Assembly: GCA_017545525.1 (NCBI GenBank)
Contig: JAFWMT010000006.1
Span: 1 to 41,170, forward strand
DNA length: 41,170 nucleotides
Direction of reading: 5' to 3'
Source: Candidatus Saccharimonadota bacterium
GTDB lineage: Bacteria > Patescibacteriota > Saccharimonadia > Saccharimonadales > Saccharimonadaceae
The position numbers and the translations under genes are program-made. This document shows positions 7,626-39,059 of this stretch, piece after piece; the first letter of the stretch is position 1, and each line of letters opens with the position of its first letter. Below the pieces are notes generated by a model. The model was not told the origin of the DNA. It saw only the letters and a program-made list of their open reading frames with translations, and did not search any database.

Positions 7626-9353
7626 ATGGAAGAAATTATCACATTATTAACACAGACGATTAAAGATTTATACAATCTTGATTTTCATCCCGAACTTATT
7701 CCTTCACCAGATAATCTTGATGCCGACTATTCCACCAACGCCCCCCTAAAACTCGCCAAGGAGCTCCACAAATCCCCAATGGAAATCGCGAGTGAGATTG
7801 AAACATTTATATCTGACAACGGGGGATTCCGGAGCGCGGCAGCGCGAGGTTTAGCGCGCGAGCCCCATGGCGATGGGCGCGAGCGACGCGACCCCGTGGC
7901 AGATATAAATGTTTCAATGCCAGGCTTTCTCAATTTCACTTTATCCGACGACTATTTGGAGACCCAAATTGACGAGTTATTGAACGACTTTGATAAGAAT
8001 ATCTCATCCGACGAATTTGCGGGAAAAACTGTCATTTGTGAATTTAGCGACCCCAATCCTTTCAAAGTCCTCCACGTCGGCCATCTCTACACTTCCATCG
8101 TTGGCGATTCCATCGCGAAATTATTTGAATACGCCGGCGCCAACGTCATTCGCGCCAATTTTGGCGGCGATGTCGGCCTTCACGTCGCAAAAACTATGTA
8201 CATCTTACGTCAAAAATCTCTAGATGAATTAACTATTGAAGATATCGCAAGATGCTATGTTGAAGGAACTGCTGCCTATGAAGACGATTCGTCCGCAAAG
8301 GAAGAGATTACTAAACTTAATCAAGAAATCTACAAAATTAATTCCGAAAAATTACATGATTCGGAACTAGCCGAACTTTATTGGAAGGGCAGGGAATTAT
8401 CTTACGATTATTTCCGTAATTTTTATGATTCTATCGGCGTAAAATTTGATAAGTATTACCCCGAATCTACCGTAGCCGACCTCGGCCTCACTAAAGTGAA
8501 AGAACAATTAGAAAAAGGTGTTTATGAAATTTCCAACGGAGCCACAATTTTTAACGGCGAAAAATTCGGTCTCCATACGCGCGTCTTTATTAATCAACAG
8601 GGCGTACCAACTTACGAAACTAAAGACGTTGGACTAATCTTTACTAAGTGGAATGACTATCATTTTGATAAATCTGTTGTCATCACTGGCTCCGAACAGT
8701 TAGATTATATGAAAGTTGTATTAAAATCCGTTGAACAATATGCGCCTGAGTTAGTTGAACGCACCAATCATCTAATTCATGGCCTCGTTAAACTACCAGG
8801 TAACGTCAAAATGTCCTCAAGAAAAGGCAATTTCTTGAAAGCTGTCGATGTTTTAGATATGGTTAGAGACGAGTTAAAAAGCGCCTACGATTCTTCCGAC
8901 GAGAAAGTCGCTCTCTCTGCGACAAAGTATGCTTTTCTAAAATACAAAATGGGCGGAGACATCATTTTCGACCCGAAAGAATCGGTCAAAATGACCGGTA
9001 ATTCCGGCCCCTACCTCTTATATTCCGCCGTCCGCGCTAAAAAAATCATCCAAAAAGGCGTTTCGGGCTCCGAGTCTACGAACAAAAGAAGATGCTTGTC
9101 GTCAGAACGCAATTTAATGAAAAAACTTTTTGAGTATAAGCCACTCTTACAAGAAGCGGTTTCGGAAATGGCCACGCACAAAGTCGCGAATTATTTATAT
9201 GAACTCGCCCAGGCTTTCAGCCGTTTCTACGAAAATTGCCCCGTTATCGGTTCCGAAGAAGAAACCGAGCGCTTAAAACTCGTCCAAGTATATCTAGAAA
9301 CTATGACTCATGGGCTTAACATTTTAGGGATAGAAATTCCAGAGGAGATGTAA
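7626..9353 (+). CDS. argS: Arginyl-tRNA synthetase with an in-frame palindromic insertion
   Basis: Class I synthetase that charges tRNA-Arg with arginine. Motifs are the HIGH-type HVGH at residues 150-153 within DPNPFKVLHVGHLYTSIVGD, the arginyl motif GGDVGLHV, and a KMSKS-like KMSSRKGN from residue 395. A C-terminal DALR anticodon-binding domain ends in FYENCPV and the final helices. The length of 575 is normal. The oddity is a GC-rich stretch encoding residues about 64-92 (RSAAARGLAREPHGDGRERR) inside the N-terminal domain, just before the conserved INVSMPGFLNF strand. It is Arg/Ala/Gly-rich, unlike the rest of the protein, and is enclosed by perfect 19-bp inverted arms (see the repeat at 7797-7918). 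The gene overlaps orn by one base. Confidence 0.96.
   Translation: MEEIITLLTQTIKDLYNLDFHPELIPSPDNLDADYSTNAPLKLAKELHKSPMEIASEIETFISDNGGFRSAAARGLAREPHGDGRERRDPVADINVSMPGFLNFTLSDDYLETQIDELLNDFDKNISSDEFAGKTVICEFSDPNPFKVLHVGHLYTSIVGDSIAKLFEYAGANVIRANFGGDVGLHVAKTMYILRQKSLDELTIEDIARCYVEGTAAYEDDSSAKEEITKLNQEIYKINSEKLHDSELAELYWKGRELSYDYFRNFYDSIGVKFDKYYPESTVADLGLTKVKEQLEKGVYEISNGATIFNGEKFGLHTRVFINQQGVPTYETKDVGLIFTKWNDYHFDKSVVITGSEQLDYMKVVLKSVEQYAPELVERTNHLIHGLVKLPGNVKMSSRKGNFLKAVDVLDMVRDELKSAYDSSDEKVALSATKYAFLKYKMGGDIIFDPKESVKMTGNSGPYLLYSAVRAKKIIQKGVSGSESTNKRRCLSSERNLMKKLFEYKPLLQEAVSEMATHKVANYLYELAQAFSRFYENCPVIGSEEETERLKLVQVYLETMTHGLNILGIEIPEEM
7797..7918. repeat. Palindromic insertion element A (in argS)
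   Basis: The left arm 7797-7815 (ATTGAAACATTTATATCTG) is the exact reverse complement of 7900-7918. A second stem follows inside: ACGGGG (7819-7824) with CCCCGT (7892-7897). The core is GGGGATTCC, GGAGCGCGGCAGCGCGAG (7831-7848), GTTTAGCGCG, a small hairpin CCCAT-GGCG-ATGGG, and CGACGCGACCC (7884-7894). The distance between the arms is 84 nt (28 codons). The same core, in the same order, occurs in ileS (37922-38040) with unrelated arms. The core is much richer in G+C than the gene around it. The two copies are read in different frames, which argues that the DNA or RNA structure is conserved, not the peptide. Confidence 0.85.
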
Positions 9354-17770: not shown

Positions 17771-20215
17771 ATGAAACGTCTTGTTTTGATCGATGGAAAG
17801 TCGGTTTTTTATCGTGGGTATTATGCTATGGGTGCTTTAAGTCTCTCCGACGGTACTCCTACGGGTGGTGTTTATGGCTTTGCCGCCATTGCTATGGAAA
17901 TCGTTCGTGAGCTAAACCCGACTAAAGTCGTTGTCGCTTGGGATTCTAAAACCTCCGCTAACAAACGTCGCGCTATTTACCCAGAGTATAAAGCCGGTCG
18001 TGTTAAACCGGGAGAAGATTTCTATACTCAAATTCCGCTATTACAAACTCTCGTTCATGATCTTGGTTGGGATTTTATCGAAATTAATCAGTATGAAGCT
18101 GACGATATTATCGGCACCCTCTCTAAAGAAGCTGATGATGCGGGTGATTACGAAACTTACATTATTTCGAGCGATCTCGATATGCTCCAAATTGTCGATG
18201 AAAATACTCACATGTGGCGCATCTTAAAAGGCTTTACCAAAATCGAAGAAATTAACGTTCCGGAACTAGAAGCTAAGTATGGGATTAAAAAATCGCAATT
18301 TCTTGATTTAAAGGCGTTGAAAGGTGACTCTTCCGACAACATTCCTGGCGTTCCTGGCATTGGTGAAAAAACCGCCGCGAAACTACTAAATGATTATGAT
18401 AATCTCGATGGTATTTATGCGCACCTTGATGAAATCACTGGCTCGACTAAACAAAAACTTGAAGCTGGGAAAGACTCGGCCTATATGTCGAAGACTCTTG
18501 CCGAAATTATGTTCGACGCCCCCGTTGACTTAACGAAAATCCCCGACTTCCATTTCGATTCTGAAAAAATCATCACCGGCCTGAAAAAACTCGAATTCAA
18601 CTCCCTCATCCGCAAGATCCGCAAAGGCGAATTCAAAAATAGTGCTACTCGAGGGCTTACGGAGGTTACGACCGAGTATGAGGGCGCTTCGCCCGTGACG
18701 ACGGGCCGAAGCGACCCGTCCCGAGAGAGCACTATTTTAAATTCGCCTTCTTCAGAGGTAGCGTCCCGAGAAAGTGCTATTTCGGATGATTATGATAAGA
18801 ATACGATAATTGATCAAGATATTAAATCTCTAATGCACAGTGATGAAAAAAATGCCGAAAAAATTTTAGGTGGCGCCTCTTTCTGGGACCTCGGCCAAGC
18901 TGCCTTTTTGTTAAATCCTTTGTCGCGCGAAGAACCTCATCTCGTCGTTCCCGAAGAAGAATACAAGAAACAACTCCAAGAATTCAAAAAATACCCGAAA
19001 CTATATAATATATATACTAATTTTGACTTACCCCTCATCCCGATTCTTTATAAAATGGAACGAAAGGGTATGCTGATTGACCGCAATTATTTCGCCAACC
19101 TTAAAACCGAATATGAGCAAGAAACTAAAAAAATCGAAAAAGCAGTTTACGAGCTTGCCGGCAGGGAATTTAATCTTAACTCTCCGCTCCAACTCTCCGA
19201 AATCCTATTCACGACTTTGAATCTTCCGACTAAAGGCGTTAAAAAGACTACTCGGGGTTATTCTACTGGCGCTAAAGAACTCGAAAAATTACGTCCTTTC
19301 CATCCTATTATCGATAAAATCTCCGAATATCGCGAATCCGCAAAACTATTAAATACTTATATTATACCAATGCCTGACCTTGCCGATGCGGACAATCGAG
19401 TCCATACGACCTTTACTCAAAATGTCACCGCGACCGGTCGTTTAAGCTCGAAAGACCCGAATCTTCAGAATATCCCAGTTCGCACCGAAGCTGGGAAGAG
19501 AATTAGAACTGGCTTTATCGCTCCTAAAGGTAAGGTATTAGTTTCTGCTGATTACTCTCAGTTCGAACTCCGCCTCGCCGCCATTCTCTCGAACGACAAA
19601 AACCTAATCGACGACTTTAACCACGATGTTGATATCCACACTAAAACCGCCGCCGAAGCCTTTAAGGTCCCTCTAGCTCAAGTCACCAAAGACCAACGTC
19701 GTGCCGCCAAAGTCATTAATTTTGGTATTCTCTATGGTATGAGCGTAAAAGGTCTTGCCGATTCCGCAAAAATGCCAATTAACGAAGCAAAACAGTTTAT
19801 CGACAGCTACTTTAAACTTCGTGCTCCAATAAAAGAAAAGTTGAACAATATTTTAAAGCAGGCCAGGGAAGAAGGCTATGTTGAAACTTTTTATGGCCGC
19901 CGTCGCCCCACTCCAGATGTGAAATCGAGTAATTTTGTTATTCGTCAATCCGCCGAACGCGCGGCTATGAATATGCCGATTCAGGGTACCGAAGCTGATC
20001 TAATGAAACGTGCCATGATTGCGGTCGACCAAAAGCTCCCGAAAGGTGCCGAACTCATCATGCAGGTACACGATTCTCTTATCATTGAATGCGACGAAGA
20101 CCTTAAAGAAGCAGTCGCCAAAATTCTCCAAACTAACATGGAGACCGTCGCTCCAGAGTTAAATATCAAACTCGCCGTCGAAGTTACCTTCGGTAAAAAC
20201 TGGGGCGAATTGTAA
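17771..20215 (+). CDS. polA: DNA polymerase I without a proofreading domain, with palindromic insertion
   Basis: Fills gaps and removes RNA primers. The N-terminal 5'-nuclease domain (residues 1-290) is complete, with LIDGKSVFYRGYYAM, TGGVYGFA, YEADDIIGTL and LKGDSSDNIPGVPGIGEKTA. The polymerase domain (from about 415) has motif A DYSQFELRLA (Asp594), motif B RRAAKVINFGILYG and motif C QVHDSL (Asp768). Between them only about 120 residues remain; DLGQAAFLLNPL is probably the last trace of the 3'-5' exonuclease-like domain, and no exonuclease acidic motifs are left. The linker also holds a palindromic insertion (residues about 285-338) with tandem SRES-(T/A)-I repeats. At 814 residues it is shorter than the usual 880-930. 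It presumably lacks proofreading. Confidence 0.95.
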   Translation: MKRLVLIDGKSVFYRGYYAMGALSLSDGTPTGGVYGFAAIAMEIVRELNPTKVVVAWDSKTSANKRRAIYPEYKAGRVKPGEDFYTQIPLLQTLVHDLGWDFIEINQYEADDIIGTLSKEADDAGDYETYIISSDLDMLQIVDENTHMWRILKGFTKIEEINVPELEAKYGIKKSQFLDLKALKGDSSDNIPGVPGIGEKTAAKLLNDYDNLDGIYAHLDEITGSTKQKLEAGKDSAYMSKTLAEIMFDAPVDLTKIPDFHFDSEKIITGLKKLEFNSLIRKIRKGEFKNSATRGLTEVTTEYEGASPVTTGRSDPSRESTILNSPSSEVASRESAISDDYDKNTIIDQDIKSLMHSDEKNAEKILGGASFWDLGQAAFLLNPLSREEPHLVVPEEEYKKQLQEFKKYPKLYNIYTNFDLPLIPILYKMERKGMLIDRNYFANLKTEYEQETKKIEKAVYELAGREFNLNSPLQLSEILFTTLNLPTKGVKKTTRGYSTGAKELEKLRPFHPIIDKISEYRESAKLLNTYIIPMPDLADADNRVHTTFTQNVTATGRLSSKDPNLQNIPVRTEAGKRIRTGFIAPKGKVLVSADYSQFELRLAAILSNDKNLIDDFNHDVDIHTKTAAEAFKVPLAQVTKDQRRAAKVINFGILYGMSVKGLADSAKMPINEAKQFIDSYFKLRAPIKEKLNNILKQAREEGYVETFYGRRRPTPDVKSSNFVIRQSAERAAMNMPIQGTEADLMKRAMIAVDQKLPKGAELIMQVHDSLIIECDEDLKEAVAKILQTNMETVAPELNIKLAVEVTFGKNWGEL
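18624..18782. repeat. Palindromic insertion element B (in polA)
   Basis: The left arm 18624-18646 and right arm 18728-18749 are reverse complements except for one substitution and one extra A. The arms are 81 nt apart (27 codons). The inner hairpin is CGCTTCG-CCCGT, loop GACG, ACGGG-C-CGAAGCG (about 18685-18713). The core is a divergent version of that in argS and ileS: TTACGGAG near the left, CGAGT, a hairpin with a GACG loop (GGCG in the others), and CGACCCGTCCCG on the right. A partial tandem copy of the right end follows: CGTCCCGAGAAAG-plus-CTATTT (18762-18782) matches 18718-18738 at 18 of 21 positions. The encoded peptide SPVTTGRSDPSR parallels SPVATGENDATR of the ileS copy. Confidence 0.72.
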
Positions 20216-35872: not shown

Positions 35873-38857
35873 ATGAAATATAGAGCTGGAGAACGCCGTA
35901 AGGCTGTTGAATACGAAAAGGCCATCAGCGAGTGGTGGAAGAAAAATCAAACTTTTGAACAATCGGTCGAAAATCGCCCGATTGATAAATCCTATGTTTT
36001 TTATGACGGCCCTCCGTTCATTACGGGCAATCCGCACCATGGTACACTCCTTAGCTCTATCGTTAAAGACGTCGTCCCGCGCTATTGGACCATGAACGGC
36101 TATAGAGTAGAACGCAGATGGGGATGGGACTGTCATGGCCTTCCAGCTGAAAATTTTGTTGAAAAACAGCTCGGTATTACTGATCGTCGTGAAATTGGCA
36201 CTAAATGGAGCCTTGAAGATTATATCATCAAAGCTCGCGAATCTATGGTCGCCAATTCAGAAACTTGGCGCAGCACCATTGACCGCGTTGGCCGCTGGGT
36301 AGACTTTGATAATTGTTACCGCACCATGAACAAAGATTTCATGGAATCCGTTTGGTGGGCTTTCAAACAACTCTACGACGCTGGTAAAATCTACGAAGGT
36401 CGCAAAGTTTTAATGTATGATACTAAATTCGCTACCCCAGTCTCTAAAGCCGAAGTTACCATGGACAACGACGCCTACCAAGTCGTCACCGACCCTAGCG
36501 CTTATGTTAAATTCAAATTAGTAGATTCTCCTGAATCCGCTTATATGCTCGCCTGGACTACGACTCCCTGGACCTTAATGGGCAATCGCGCCTTAGCTGT
36601 CAGTAAAGACTTAGATTATGGTATTTATGATATAGATGGTGAAAAATATATCGTAGCTGTAAAACGCGCCGAAAACCTCTTTAAGGGCCAAAAACCCGAA
36701 AAAACCATCAAAGGCACCGACTTGAACGGTTTGACCTATGAATCTATCGACGGTACAACCTGCAAGGTCTTTACTGCTGATTTTGTTGGTGAAGAAGAAG
36801 GTACTGGCATCGTTCATATCGCCCCAGCTTATGGCGAAGACGACTACGCTCTCTACTCTAAGCACGAAGCCGAAATCGACTTTGTCGATTGTCTTGATGA
36901 AAATGGTTATTATCTTGAAGAATATGCCGAAAAATTGCATGAGCTCGGCGTTCGCGATACCGACGAGCATGGTATCCAAATCTGGACAGGCAACAAATTC
37001 ATCGCTAAATGCCTCGAAGAAAAGGGAATTATCTATAAAATTGAGTATATCCAGCACGAATATCCCTTTAATCCTCGTAGTAAAGAACGTATTATGTATC
37101 GCGCTTTTCCGTCCTGGTTCTTCAATATTGATGGTCAGAAACAGATGATGCTAGATGAGAATGAGAACATTAATTGGTTTCCAAATTATCTCAAACATGG
37201 CCGTTTCGCAAAAAATATCGAACAAGCTCCTGACTGGAATCTTTCTCGTGATCGTTTCTGGGCCACTGCTATGCCAGTTTGGAAGGGAGACAAGGGTTCG
37301 GTTAAAGTTATTGGCAGCTATGCCGAGTTAAAAGAGCTTTCCGGTAAAGAACTCGAAGATTATCATCGCCCCTGGGTTGATGAAATTGAATTCGATTTAA
37401 ATGGCGAACATTTTACCCGCATCGAAAAGGTTCTCGACTGCTGGTTCGAATCTGGCTCCATGCCGTTCGCCCAGCTTCATTATCCCTTTGAAAATAGGGA
37501 AAAATTTGAAGCTAACTACCCAGCCGACTTCATTGTAGAGTATGTTGGTCAAGTTCGCGCTTGGTTCTATTACGTTCACGCTGTTAATACTGCTCTCGCT
37601 AGTATTGGCGCTTTCGGCGAAAAGGCTAAAAATGGCCCGAAAAACGCCTACAAGAATGTCATTACTACTGGCACTTTAGCAGGGAACGATGGCCGTAAGA
37701 TGAGCAAATCCCTCGGCAACTTTACCGACCCGAATGAGCTAATGGACCAATACTCTGCCGACGCCCTCCGTTTCCTCCTTCTCTCTAGCCCAGTCCTCTC
37801 CGGCGAAGATTTCGCTCTCCTCGACAAAGACGTCTCCGACGTCAATCGCAAACTCGCCATGATTTGGAACGTCTACGACTTCTTCACGACCTACGCGGAA
37901 GTTGAAGATATAGATAGTGACGAATTCGAGAATATTACCATTGAGGGGATTACGGAGCGCGGCAGCGCGAGTCATAGCGCGTTTTCCCCTGTGGCGACAG
38001 GGGAAAACGACGCGACCCGAAATGGTAATATTTCGAATCCCCTAGATGCCTGGATCATCTCCCGCATTTATCAGTTAAGAAACGACATCACCTCCGGCAT
38101 GGAAGAATACAATATCCCGAAAGCGTTAGACGTCGTTCTCCCGTTCATCGACGACATGAGCAACTGGTTCGTCCGTCGCTCTCGCCGCCGCTTTAGTAAA
38201 AACGATGATAAAGAGGACGAAAAACAGGCCTTTGCTACGCTCTACTTTGTATTAATATATTTATCCAAACTTCTAGCGCCCTTTACTCCGTTTCTCGCTG
38301 AAGAGCTATATCAAAAAATGACCGGAAAAACTGACTCGGTCCATCTCCTTGACTGGCCTGCTGCCGGCGAAATTGACCACGAAACCCTAGACCATATGTC
38401 TCGTACTCGCCAGATTATCACCGACGCCTTAGCTCTTCGCATGCAAAAATCCGATACCGAAGACCAGATTAAGATTCGCCAACCGCTCGCTAAGCTCACC
38501 TATGATGGTGAGAAGTTAGATAGTTTCTATGAACAGATTATTGCTGACGAAGTCAACGTGAAAAAGGTCGAGAACGCTAAGACCTTTACGCTCGATAAAA
38601 CTCTTACTCCTGAACTGATTGAAGAGGGAACTGCACGCGAAATTATCCGCGCCGTCCAATCTGCCCGTAAACATGCCGGCCTTCGCCAAGACGACGAGAT
38701 TAAACTCTCTATTTCTACCACTCTTCCAGAAAACTACGTTGAACTTATAAAAACCGAAGTTGGCGCTAAAGAAATCAACCAAACCGGAAATTACGCCCAC
38801 GACGAAATTGCTAAAATCAACGGCGAAAACGTCACAATCTCCCTAGAAAAGATATAA
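35873..38857 (+). CDS. ileS: Isoleucyl-tRNA synthetase (eukaryote-like type) with palindromic insertion
   Basis: Class I synthetase that charges tRNA-Ile and edits valine. The HIGH-type sequence is PHHG at residues 54-57 within DGPPFITGNPHHGTLLSSIVKD, WGWDCHGLPAEN follows, and KMSKS is at 609-613 (GRKMSKSLGN). The editing domain (residues about 190-400) contains TTTPWTLMGNRAL, and GIVHIAPAYGEDD. The C-terminal domain has LDAWIISRIYQLRND and the anticodon-binding helices. The architecture (994 residues, no C-terminal zinc finger) is that of the mupirocin-insensitive, eukaryote-like IleS. Residues about 684-723 are coded by a palindromic insertion (37922-38040) placed between the catalytic core and LDAWIISR. 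The mRNA is near-leaderless. Confidence 0.95.
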   Translation: MKYRAGERRKAVEYEKAISEWWKKNQTFEQSVENRPIDKSYVFYDGPPFITGNPHHGTLLSSIVKDVVPRYWTMNGYRVERRWGWDCHGLPAENFVEKQLGITDRREIGTKWSLEDYIIKARESMVANSETWRSTIDRVGRWVDFDNCYRTMNKDFMESVWWAFKQLYDAGKIYEGRKVLMYDTKFATPVSKAEVTMDNDAYQVVTDPSAYVKFKLVDSPESAYMLAWTTTPWTLMGNRALAVSKDLDYGIYDIDGEKYIVAVKRAENLFKGQKPEKTIKGTDLNGLTYESIDGTTCKVFTADFVGEEEGTGIVHIAPAYGEDDYALYSKHEAEIDFVDCLDENGYYLEEYAEKLHELGVRDTDEHGIQIWTGNKFIAKCLEEKGIIYKIEYIQHEYPFNPRSKERIMYRAFPSWFFNIDGQKQMMLDENENINWFPNYLKHGRFAKNIEQAPDWNLSRDRFWATAMPVWKGDKGSVKVIGSYAELKELSGKELEDYHRPWVDEIEFDLNGEHFTRIEKVLDCWFESGSMPFAQLHYPFENREKFEANYPADFIVEYVGQVRAWFYYVHAVNTALASIGAFGEKAKNGPKNAYKNVITTGTLAGNDGRKMSKSLGNFTDPNELMDQYSADALRFLLLSSPVLSGEDFALLDKDVSDVNRKLAMIWNVYDFFTTYAEVEDIDSDEFENITIEGITERGSASHSAFSPVATGENDATRNGNISNPLDAWIISRIYQLRNDITSGMEEYNIPKALDVVLPFIDDMSNWFVRRSRRRFSKNDDKEDEKQAFATLYFVLIYLSKLLAPFTPFLAEELYQKMTGKTDSVHLLDWPAAGEIDHETLDHMSRTRQIITDALALRMQKSDTEDQIKIRQPLAKLTYDGEKLDSFYEQIIADEVNVKKVENAKTFTLDKTLTPELIEEGTAREIIRAVQSARKHAGLRQDDEIKLSISTTLPENYVELIKTEVGAKEINQTGNYAHDEIAKINGENVTISLEKI
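37922..38040. repeat. Palindromic insertion element C (in ileS)
   Basis: The left arm 37922-37942 and right arm 38021-38040 (AATGGTAATATTTCGAATCC) are reverse complements with one mismatch and one extra base. The arms are 78 nt apart (26 codons). Core: GGGGATTAC (37945-37953), GGAGCGCGGCAGCGCGAG (37954-37971), TCATAGCGCG, then a perfect 13-bp hairpin CGTTTTCCCCTGT-GGCG-ACAGGGGAAAACG (37980-38009), and CGACGCGACCC (38008-38018). The 18-mer and the 11-mer are identical to those in the argS copy (7831-7848, 7884-7894), and the GGCG loop is the same, but the arms and the inner stem differ completely. Confidence 0.87.
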
Positions 38858-39019
38858 ATATAATAAAAATCGAGCGACTCCGCAGGCGCCAGCAGTCAAA
38901 AATACAACCGTTACGAATCCGAATCTGAAACTGTTAATTTCAGTGAGGATTCGACTAACTGTTGTATTTTTGACGACTGCGAGCCGAGGACTAGCGAGAT
39001 TTTTATTATATTTATATCT
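38850..39019. repeat. 170-bp palindrome D at the ileS 3' end
   Basis: A 22-bp outer arm (38850-38871) is an exact reverse complement of 38998-39019. A 14-bp inner arm GTCAAAAATACAAC (38895-38908) matches 38961-38974 exactly. Inside are further pairs (GAATCC/GGATTC, CTGAAA/TTTCAG). Between the outer and inner arms lie non-complementary stretches of about 23 nt. The outer left arm begins in the last codons of ileS and includes its stop codon, so it is locus-specific like arms of elements A-C. The core shares only CGAGCGAC with element A, so common origin is not proven. This fills most of the gene-free stretch 38858-39163. The rest holds the promoter at 39060. The palindrome could also end ileS transcription. 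Confidence 0.75.
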
Positions 39020-39059
39020 GTTAATTTGACAAAATGTGCATATTTAAGCATAAAAAGTA

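Follow-up and report, generated by a model that had tools for sequence, protein, structure and literature searches.

How did a palindrome come to lie in frame within a tRNA synthetase gene, when the sequence between its arms recurs elsewhere and the arms themselves do not? This question is raised by the argS gene in the 41,170-nt stretch of Saccharibacteria DNA that was analyzed here (the window). The initial annotation had described perfect 19-bp inverted arms at positions 7797-7918 around a core that argS shares with ileS, and the sequence is as described. The parts of the argS element, and the two further copies that we identified in the window, are as follows.

7626..9353, + strand: argS, arginyl-tRNA synthetase, the insertion host; open frame of 575 aa
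7797..7815, + strand: argS 5' private arm; perfect 19-bp complement of 7900-7918; encodes part of ...IETFIS...
7816..7820, + strand: argS 5' junction with the unpaired base(s) (bulge) typical of the family
7821..7895, + strand: argS conserved core, a 75-nt three-way junction (covariance model, pair counts)
7900..7918, + strand: argS 3' private arm; encodes DINVSM and overlaps the conserved host motif (I/V)SxPGF (ArgS alignment of relatives)
18626..18747, + strand: third copy, in polA (DNA polymerase I, 814 aa); diverged core, private arms
37922..38039, + strand: second copy, in ileS; arms 37922-37942 and 38021-38039, core about 37944-38018

The element and its copies in the window

ArgS contains the Pfam domains PF03485 (Arg_tRNA_synt_N), PF00750 (tRNA-synt_1d) and PF05746 (DALR_1), and the identities of IleS and PolA were likewise backed by Pfam. 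The argS element forms one open frame with the gene. In 40 first-order Markov shuffles of the window (spacer ≤150) the longest perfect inverted repeat was 16 bp, with a mean of about 10, and the RNA fold of the argS element has a z-score of -7.9 versus shuffles. As the initial annotation had stated, an 18-mer and an 11-mer of the argS core are also present in ileS in identical order. The ileS copy has its own arms, different from those of argS, and the polA copy adopts the same fold as the other two although its stem sequences differ.

Elsewhere in ArgS, the alignment with other members of the genus breaks at residues about 200, 240-245 and 480-491 (query numbering), which suggests that these positions may be further insertion hotspots common to many species. 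The longest perfect arms of the window (22 bp) are the outer arms of a hairpin at 38847-39022, a 67-nt, 79% complementary, nested and terminator-like structure over the ileS stop codon that possibly represents another element family. At the contig end (41062-41169) lies a tandem CCCTAC/CCAACT repeat that may encode a Pro/Thr-rich linker in a surface protein.

Fold of the core

In argS the core comprises a GGGG...CCCC closing helix, a small hairpin (GCGC-GGCA-GCGC) and a variable hairpin with a GGCG-type loop. The same three-way junction, in which the arm helix is closed by GGGG/CCCC and followed by the small and the variable hairpin, describes the family; the small hairpin has a covarying two-pair base (A-T, C-G or T-A), and the loop of the variable hairpin is of the GTGGCGAC type. 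In an alignment of 109 copies the proportion of paired cells is 96.2%, both sides have changed in 29 of the 35 pairs, and the covariation score is 0.477 versus 0.133 in shuffles (reached by 0 of 500), counts that use a model built from the same family, whereas the mismatch and re-pairing tests described below reach beyond the model columns. The small conserved core proposed initially is supported, but it is more than two boxes, namely a structured junction with covarying stems.

Measured from the closing G to the closing C, a length of exactly 75 nt (25 codons) was found for 86 of 99 cores, among them 12 of the 17 intergenic ones. In about 70 of the 99 the 5' arm has an additional base, 3-6 bp away from the GGGG and about five pairs from the core. 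Comparison of the window with Rfam gave no match at the gathering score except tRNAs, and nothing credible at E≤10.

Copies in the genome of origin

The 18-mer of the argS core occurs 7 times in the 720-kb genome to which the window belongs (G000). A covariance model built from seven copies (cut-off E<0.15), as the initial annotation had recommended for a search of this and related genomes, found 18 copies in it. All 18 lie within conserved genes, in both orientations, with an open frame spanning the element. Apart from ArgS, IleS and PolA, which were the ones tested against Pfam, the hosts were named from recognizable sequence motifs: MnmA (two copies), TruB, UvrB, TatD, Der, LeuRS, TlyA, a LepA/TypA-type GTPase, TsaD, RecX, YchF and RluB, as well as Obg or a second nearby site of Obg, with two copies in one open frame. 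One copy (L011 1501-1637; G000 C6:78910-79046) has a nested 36-nt insert in the loop of its variable hairpin, and this insert has an inverted repeat of its own.

Distribution and mobility of the family

Of 99 genomes of the genus (Nanosyncoccus-type Saccharibacteria), 90 carry the element, with 1 to 34 copies each. Nearly all positive genomes in a sample of the class belong to this genus; a few matches were found in two other genera of the same family, and none in the remaining genera sampled. When the core pattern was sought in GTDB contigs, only Saccharibacteria, mostly from ruminant gut, were among the matches listed, including a record of Candidatus Nanosyncoccus alces. A phage, viral or plasmid source was rejected, as the element had no match in IMG/VR, INPHARED and PLSDB (viral, phage and plasmid records). 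The core boxes are thus not confined to argS and ileS, but spread across the genome and the genus.

Of 99 aligned copies, 82 are genic and in frame and the other 17 lie between genes. The reading frame stays open across the element in all 82 genic copies, and no gene-breaking insertions were seen among the 99.

Comparison with empty sites shows that the argS insertion, with its arms, is not a general feature of ArgS: it is missing in many relatives, which have 51-57 nt between the flanking motifs versus 141 with the insert. The uvrB site is empty in six relatives, the uvrB gene of G000 being 105 nt longer, and the ileS site of the second copy is empty in G102. Net length differences from empty sites are 114 nt in mnmA, 93 and 78 nt in ileS, 93 nt in obg and 69 nt in truB. 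Identical gene sites are empty in some species and occupied by different subfamilies elsewhere, and the element-bearing loops in other species also hold a second, unrelated-looking family. Two species of about 92% identity have different elements at the same uvrB codon, and a tlyA copy common to G157 and G063 is missing from G055. The empty and filled sites, the different uvrB elements and the patchy tlyA copy therefore indicate frequent gain and loss. The compared genomes are species representatives, and among strains above about 92% identity no insertion was observed, so that the timing of insertion rests on core identity.

Around the uvrB insertion site, a local tract of raised divergence separates L131 from L136/L137, in species about 92% identical; this suggests that recombination may have imported a different element plus its flanks. 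A second insert family, GGGTGG...CAGGCCCC, of about 79 nt and also with private arms, is found at G055 C2:30186 and C1:46920, and R1 cores are nested inside the ends of this family in L120, L121, L123, L126 and L138. The G055 genome also contains, within 400 kb, at least six copies of a dispersed repeat that is about 160 bp long and 93-98% identical between copies (C1:178303, 63798, 202005, 214384; C2:18295, 87898).

Origin of the arms

True arm pairs have a median pairing score of 19.6, versus 4.9 for re-paired arms. Fully formed arms (median score 20.8) are present in 24 copies whose cores are at least 98.5% identical within one genome, and the arm-to-arm identity between such copies is 0.44 (offset search), as in unrelated sequence. 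Unless the cores have been homogenized, the arms thus form at or soon after insertion, since copies with identical cores have unrelated full arms. The original description of a conserved core with locus-private arms, in frame, is supported, in contrast to the Rickettsia palindromic elements (RPEs), in which the palindrome is the repeat. The 29 empty sites fold at a mean z of about 0, whereas the arms with the core cut out fold at -4.1; the hairpin therefore does not predate the insertion.

Nearly all the copies examined have arms of their own, but some intergenic, terminator-like copies have more similar arms. The stems of such copies consist of an A-tract, GTACC...GGTAC and a T-tract; intergenic copies in terminator-like stems, with less private arms, are found at L031, L035, L118, L247, L263, L276, L282 and L283. 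The private arms are not without common features either, as they carry weak consensus positions reaching out to about 13 bp (such as the purine of 5' position 10, where G.T is present but not A.C), a bulged base near the core, and pairing that is kept on the element strand.

Several arms can be related to host residues. The argS 3' arm retains the host motif (I/V)-S-x-P-G-F, and in a trmD-like gene one side (R-E-F-A) is conserved and the opposite side is its complement. The outer arm of the uvrB copy agrees with the left host flank (E-G-W), forcing P-S where relatives have an acidic residue, and the inner arm agrees with the right host flank (N-D-T-I-S-Q); this mosaic suggests that patches may have been copied both ways, with protein function then acting as a filter. 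Both arms in mnmA look added, not replaced (net 114 nt). Orthologous arms show paired changes (argS in G000/G095, tlyA in G157/G063), and in the argS clade G000/G156/G162/G095 the arms are common and the core type differs. The initial proposal, that the arms are inverted copies of host flank made by fold-back or template switching, remains the best reading given the hairpin-free empty sites and the unrelated arms of identical cores, but the arms are not simply a copy of one flank: uvrB is a mosaic of both, and the net insertion ranges from about 69 to 114 nt. A single-direction copy of one flank was rejected as insufficient for uvrB and ileS.

Arm pairing probably acts on the element strand

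Within the first 22 bp of the arms, isolated mismatches read on the element strand are G·T in 46 cases versus A·C in 7 (p = 4e-8), counts that are not all independent because orthologous copies share some arm changes. The G·T : A·C ratio is 14:1 in sense and 26:3 in antisense copies. Selection on the mRNA, or a bias linked to the direction of replication or transcription, would flip between sense and antisense copies, and no such flip is present. We rejected selection for an mRNA hairpin, as antisense copies show the same element-strand bias and hence A·C in the mRNA, and likewise a strand mutation bias linked to replication or transcription, as both kinds of copy behave alike. These counts indicate that arm pairing acts in a single element strand, as RNA or ssDNA, and the wobble bias points to selection on the folded element strand, perhaps for homing between alleles.

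Candidate enzymes

The Y1 (HUH) transposase PF01797 was found in only 3 of 99 genomes, and not in G000, versus the element in 90 of 99, and the TnpB zinc-ribbon PF07282 in 0 of 60 genomes. Reverse transcriptase (PF00078) is present in 25 of 40 genomes of the genus (about 380-440 aa, e.g., L318-L320), but without correlation with the element, and PF00078 had no match in G000 or in further genomes rich in the element, for example G035 (19 copies). As movers, these three were rejected or found unsupported. The reverse transcriptases of the genus possibly derive from diversity-generating retroelements.

Proposed mechanism and alternatives

We consider it probable, though by some way short of certain, that the copies constitute a lineage-specific, non-autonomous mobile family whose arms are made by fold-back template switching at or soon after insertion. 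The mobile unit would be the core, a 75-nt three-way junction that would land in either orientation and, being 25 codons long, would not shift the reading frame. Genic copies would survive only in permissive protein loops with an open frame, where translation would presumably add some 25 or more residues to the protein. At or soon after insertion, DNA synthesis across the strong hairpin may fold back on itself in a quasipalindrome-type template switch, so that some 15-25 nt on one side of the core become the reverse complement of the host flank on the other side, probably in patches and in either direction. Each copy would have its own arms because the local host flank is what is rewritten. 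Afterwards pairing of the arms would be maintained, G-U being tolerated solely on the element strand, and the working form may be the folded single strand of the element, as RNA or ssDNA. Template switching is the best-supported and most economical mechanism for the arms, but it leaves the element-strand wobble bias unexplained; as it predicts no strand bias of mismatches by itself, some selection, or a process specific to one strand, must act as well. As the sole source of the arms, fold-back is also at odds with their weak consensus, which is unexpected for pure host copies, and with the mnmA arms, which look like additions; the common arms of the argS clade with their differing core types fit core exchange as well.

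Such exchange at resident palindromes is a serious rival to fold-back. Palindromic arms would be long-lived docking sites in certain protein loops, with cores swapped by conversion or homing, and the argS arms common to G000, G156, G162 and G095 despite differing core subfamily would be explained, as would a core-less palindrome (GGATTTAGAAAATGA...TCATTTTCAAATCC) in the ileS gene of G095 (L171) where G000 has the element, the R1 cores nested in the ends of the second family (GGGTGG...CAGGNCCC), and the filling of the same sites by different families in many species. Most empty sites, however, are without any palindrome, arms at the same site usually differ between species (ArgS in G000 vs G077, uvrB in G157 vs G055), and orthologous copies in the G055/G157/G161 group retain their core type, so that we regard resident docking sites as unlikely. 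We give about half as much credence to RNA-guided homing, with one arm serving in an element-strand RNA as guide that recognizes the empty allele of the same locus. Because the arm would act as a guide, it would be under selection for wobble-tolerant pairing, which agrees with the element-strand G.U bias in both gene orientations; a structured scaffold does adjoin a private stretch of about 20 nt, and the divergent tract at the uvrB site between close species fits allelic replacement. Against it, the TnpB zinc-ribbon is present in 0 of 60 genomes and Y1 in 3 of 99, no nuclease was identified, and the search for reverse transcriptase found none in G000 or in further genomes with many copies, G035 for instance.

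The remaining explanations are less probable. An ordinary palindromic element whose own arms have diverged through compensatory substitution would account for the paired arm changes in orthologous argS (G000/G095) and tlyA (G157/G063) copies, but is contradicted, unless cores were homogenized, by copies with identical cores and unrelated full-length arms; on this evidence slow drift of element-borne arms was ruled out, and we consider the explanation very improbable. Insertion into pre-existing host hairpins, for which some intergenic copies within terminator-like stems (AAAAAGTACC...GGTACTTTTT) could be cited, has a slighter chance still: it is contradicted at the coding sites tested because the empty argS, uvrB, mnmA and ileS sites are hairpin-free (mean z about 0), and the 29 hairpin-free empty sites were taken to rule it out. 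Finally, the GC-rich genic hairpins are reminiscent of the mitochondrial bypass elements of Magnusiomyces (cited in PMC6649704), which would be in line with an insert left untranslated through RNA splicing or ribosome skipping (translational bypass). Yet the frame is open in 82 of 82 genic copies and 86 of 99 cores measure 75 nt, neither of which is needed if the insert is skipped, and we deem this the least probable of all.

A bolder form of the fold-back reading is that of a mobile element without ends of its own, in which a 75-nt single-stranded scaffold makes its terminal inverted repeats from the target at every insertion, element-strand pairing of the arms is needed for maintenance or homing, and an as-yet-unrecognized enzyme is the mover. 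We hold this to be possible, with the balance somewhat against it.

Relation to known systems and significance

The RPEs (about 150 bp, ten families) are often in-frame insertions within unrelated genes of a bacterium with a reduced genome (PMC10969869); there the palindrome is the repeated sequence, and the identity of its arms decays over time (PMC6649704). The Saccharibacteria element resembles them in its in-frame insertion into unrelated genes (18 of 18 copies in its own genome, 82 of 82 genic copies), but only its 75-nt core is repeated, and the arms are new at each site and kept paired. The coding palindromes of Nematomorpha mitochondria are genic inverted repeats in which both arms encode host residues and for which template switching has been proposed; they are gained and lost between species, with arms kept matched (PMC6649704). 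Arms that encode host residues and are kept matched are a common trait (argS, uvrB and trmD-like sites), whereas the Nematomorpha palindromes have no conserved core or mobile unit, as opposed to a 75-nt core across 99 aligned copies, and their arms are perfect, while those of the Saccharibacteria element tolerate G.T on one strand. Template switching makes and maintains perfect stems (PMC8794818) and homogenizes inverted-repeat arms in coding DNA (PMC8604942). In quasipalindromes it copies the opposite arm and alters coding sequence, as proposed here (PMC8794818, PMC8604942). It is, however, a general mutation process that involves no mobile family and predicts no element-strand wobble bias.

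Among small structured repeats, REP/BIME and the IS200/IS605 MITEs have single-strand hairpins. REPs have been described as tagged palindromes (PMC3733652). REP/RAYT and IS200/IS605 need Y1, in contrast to an element that is present in 90 of 99 genomes, with Y1 in 3 of 99, and that is mostly intragenic. A published description of the 75-nt core family was not found in the open-access literature. We know of no described mobile element that builds mirror-image arms from a host gene. The best-supported classification is an RPE-like in-frame element that is new in its internal structured core and in arms manufactured from host sequence.

With a conserved middle and private ends, the family would be missed by repeat finders that rely on terminal repeats. 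The strand-specific G·T bias makes the working strand directly testable. The family would link a mutation process, template switching at hairpins, to the life cycle of an element, and it has presumably placed peptides of about 25 residues or more in many essential proteins across the genus, providing a natural record of insertion tolerance.
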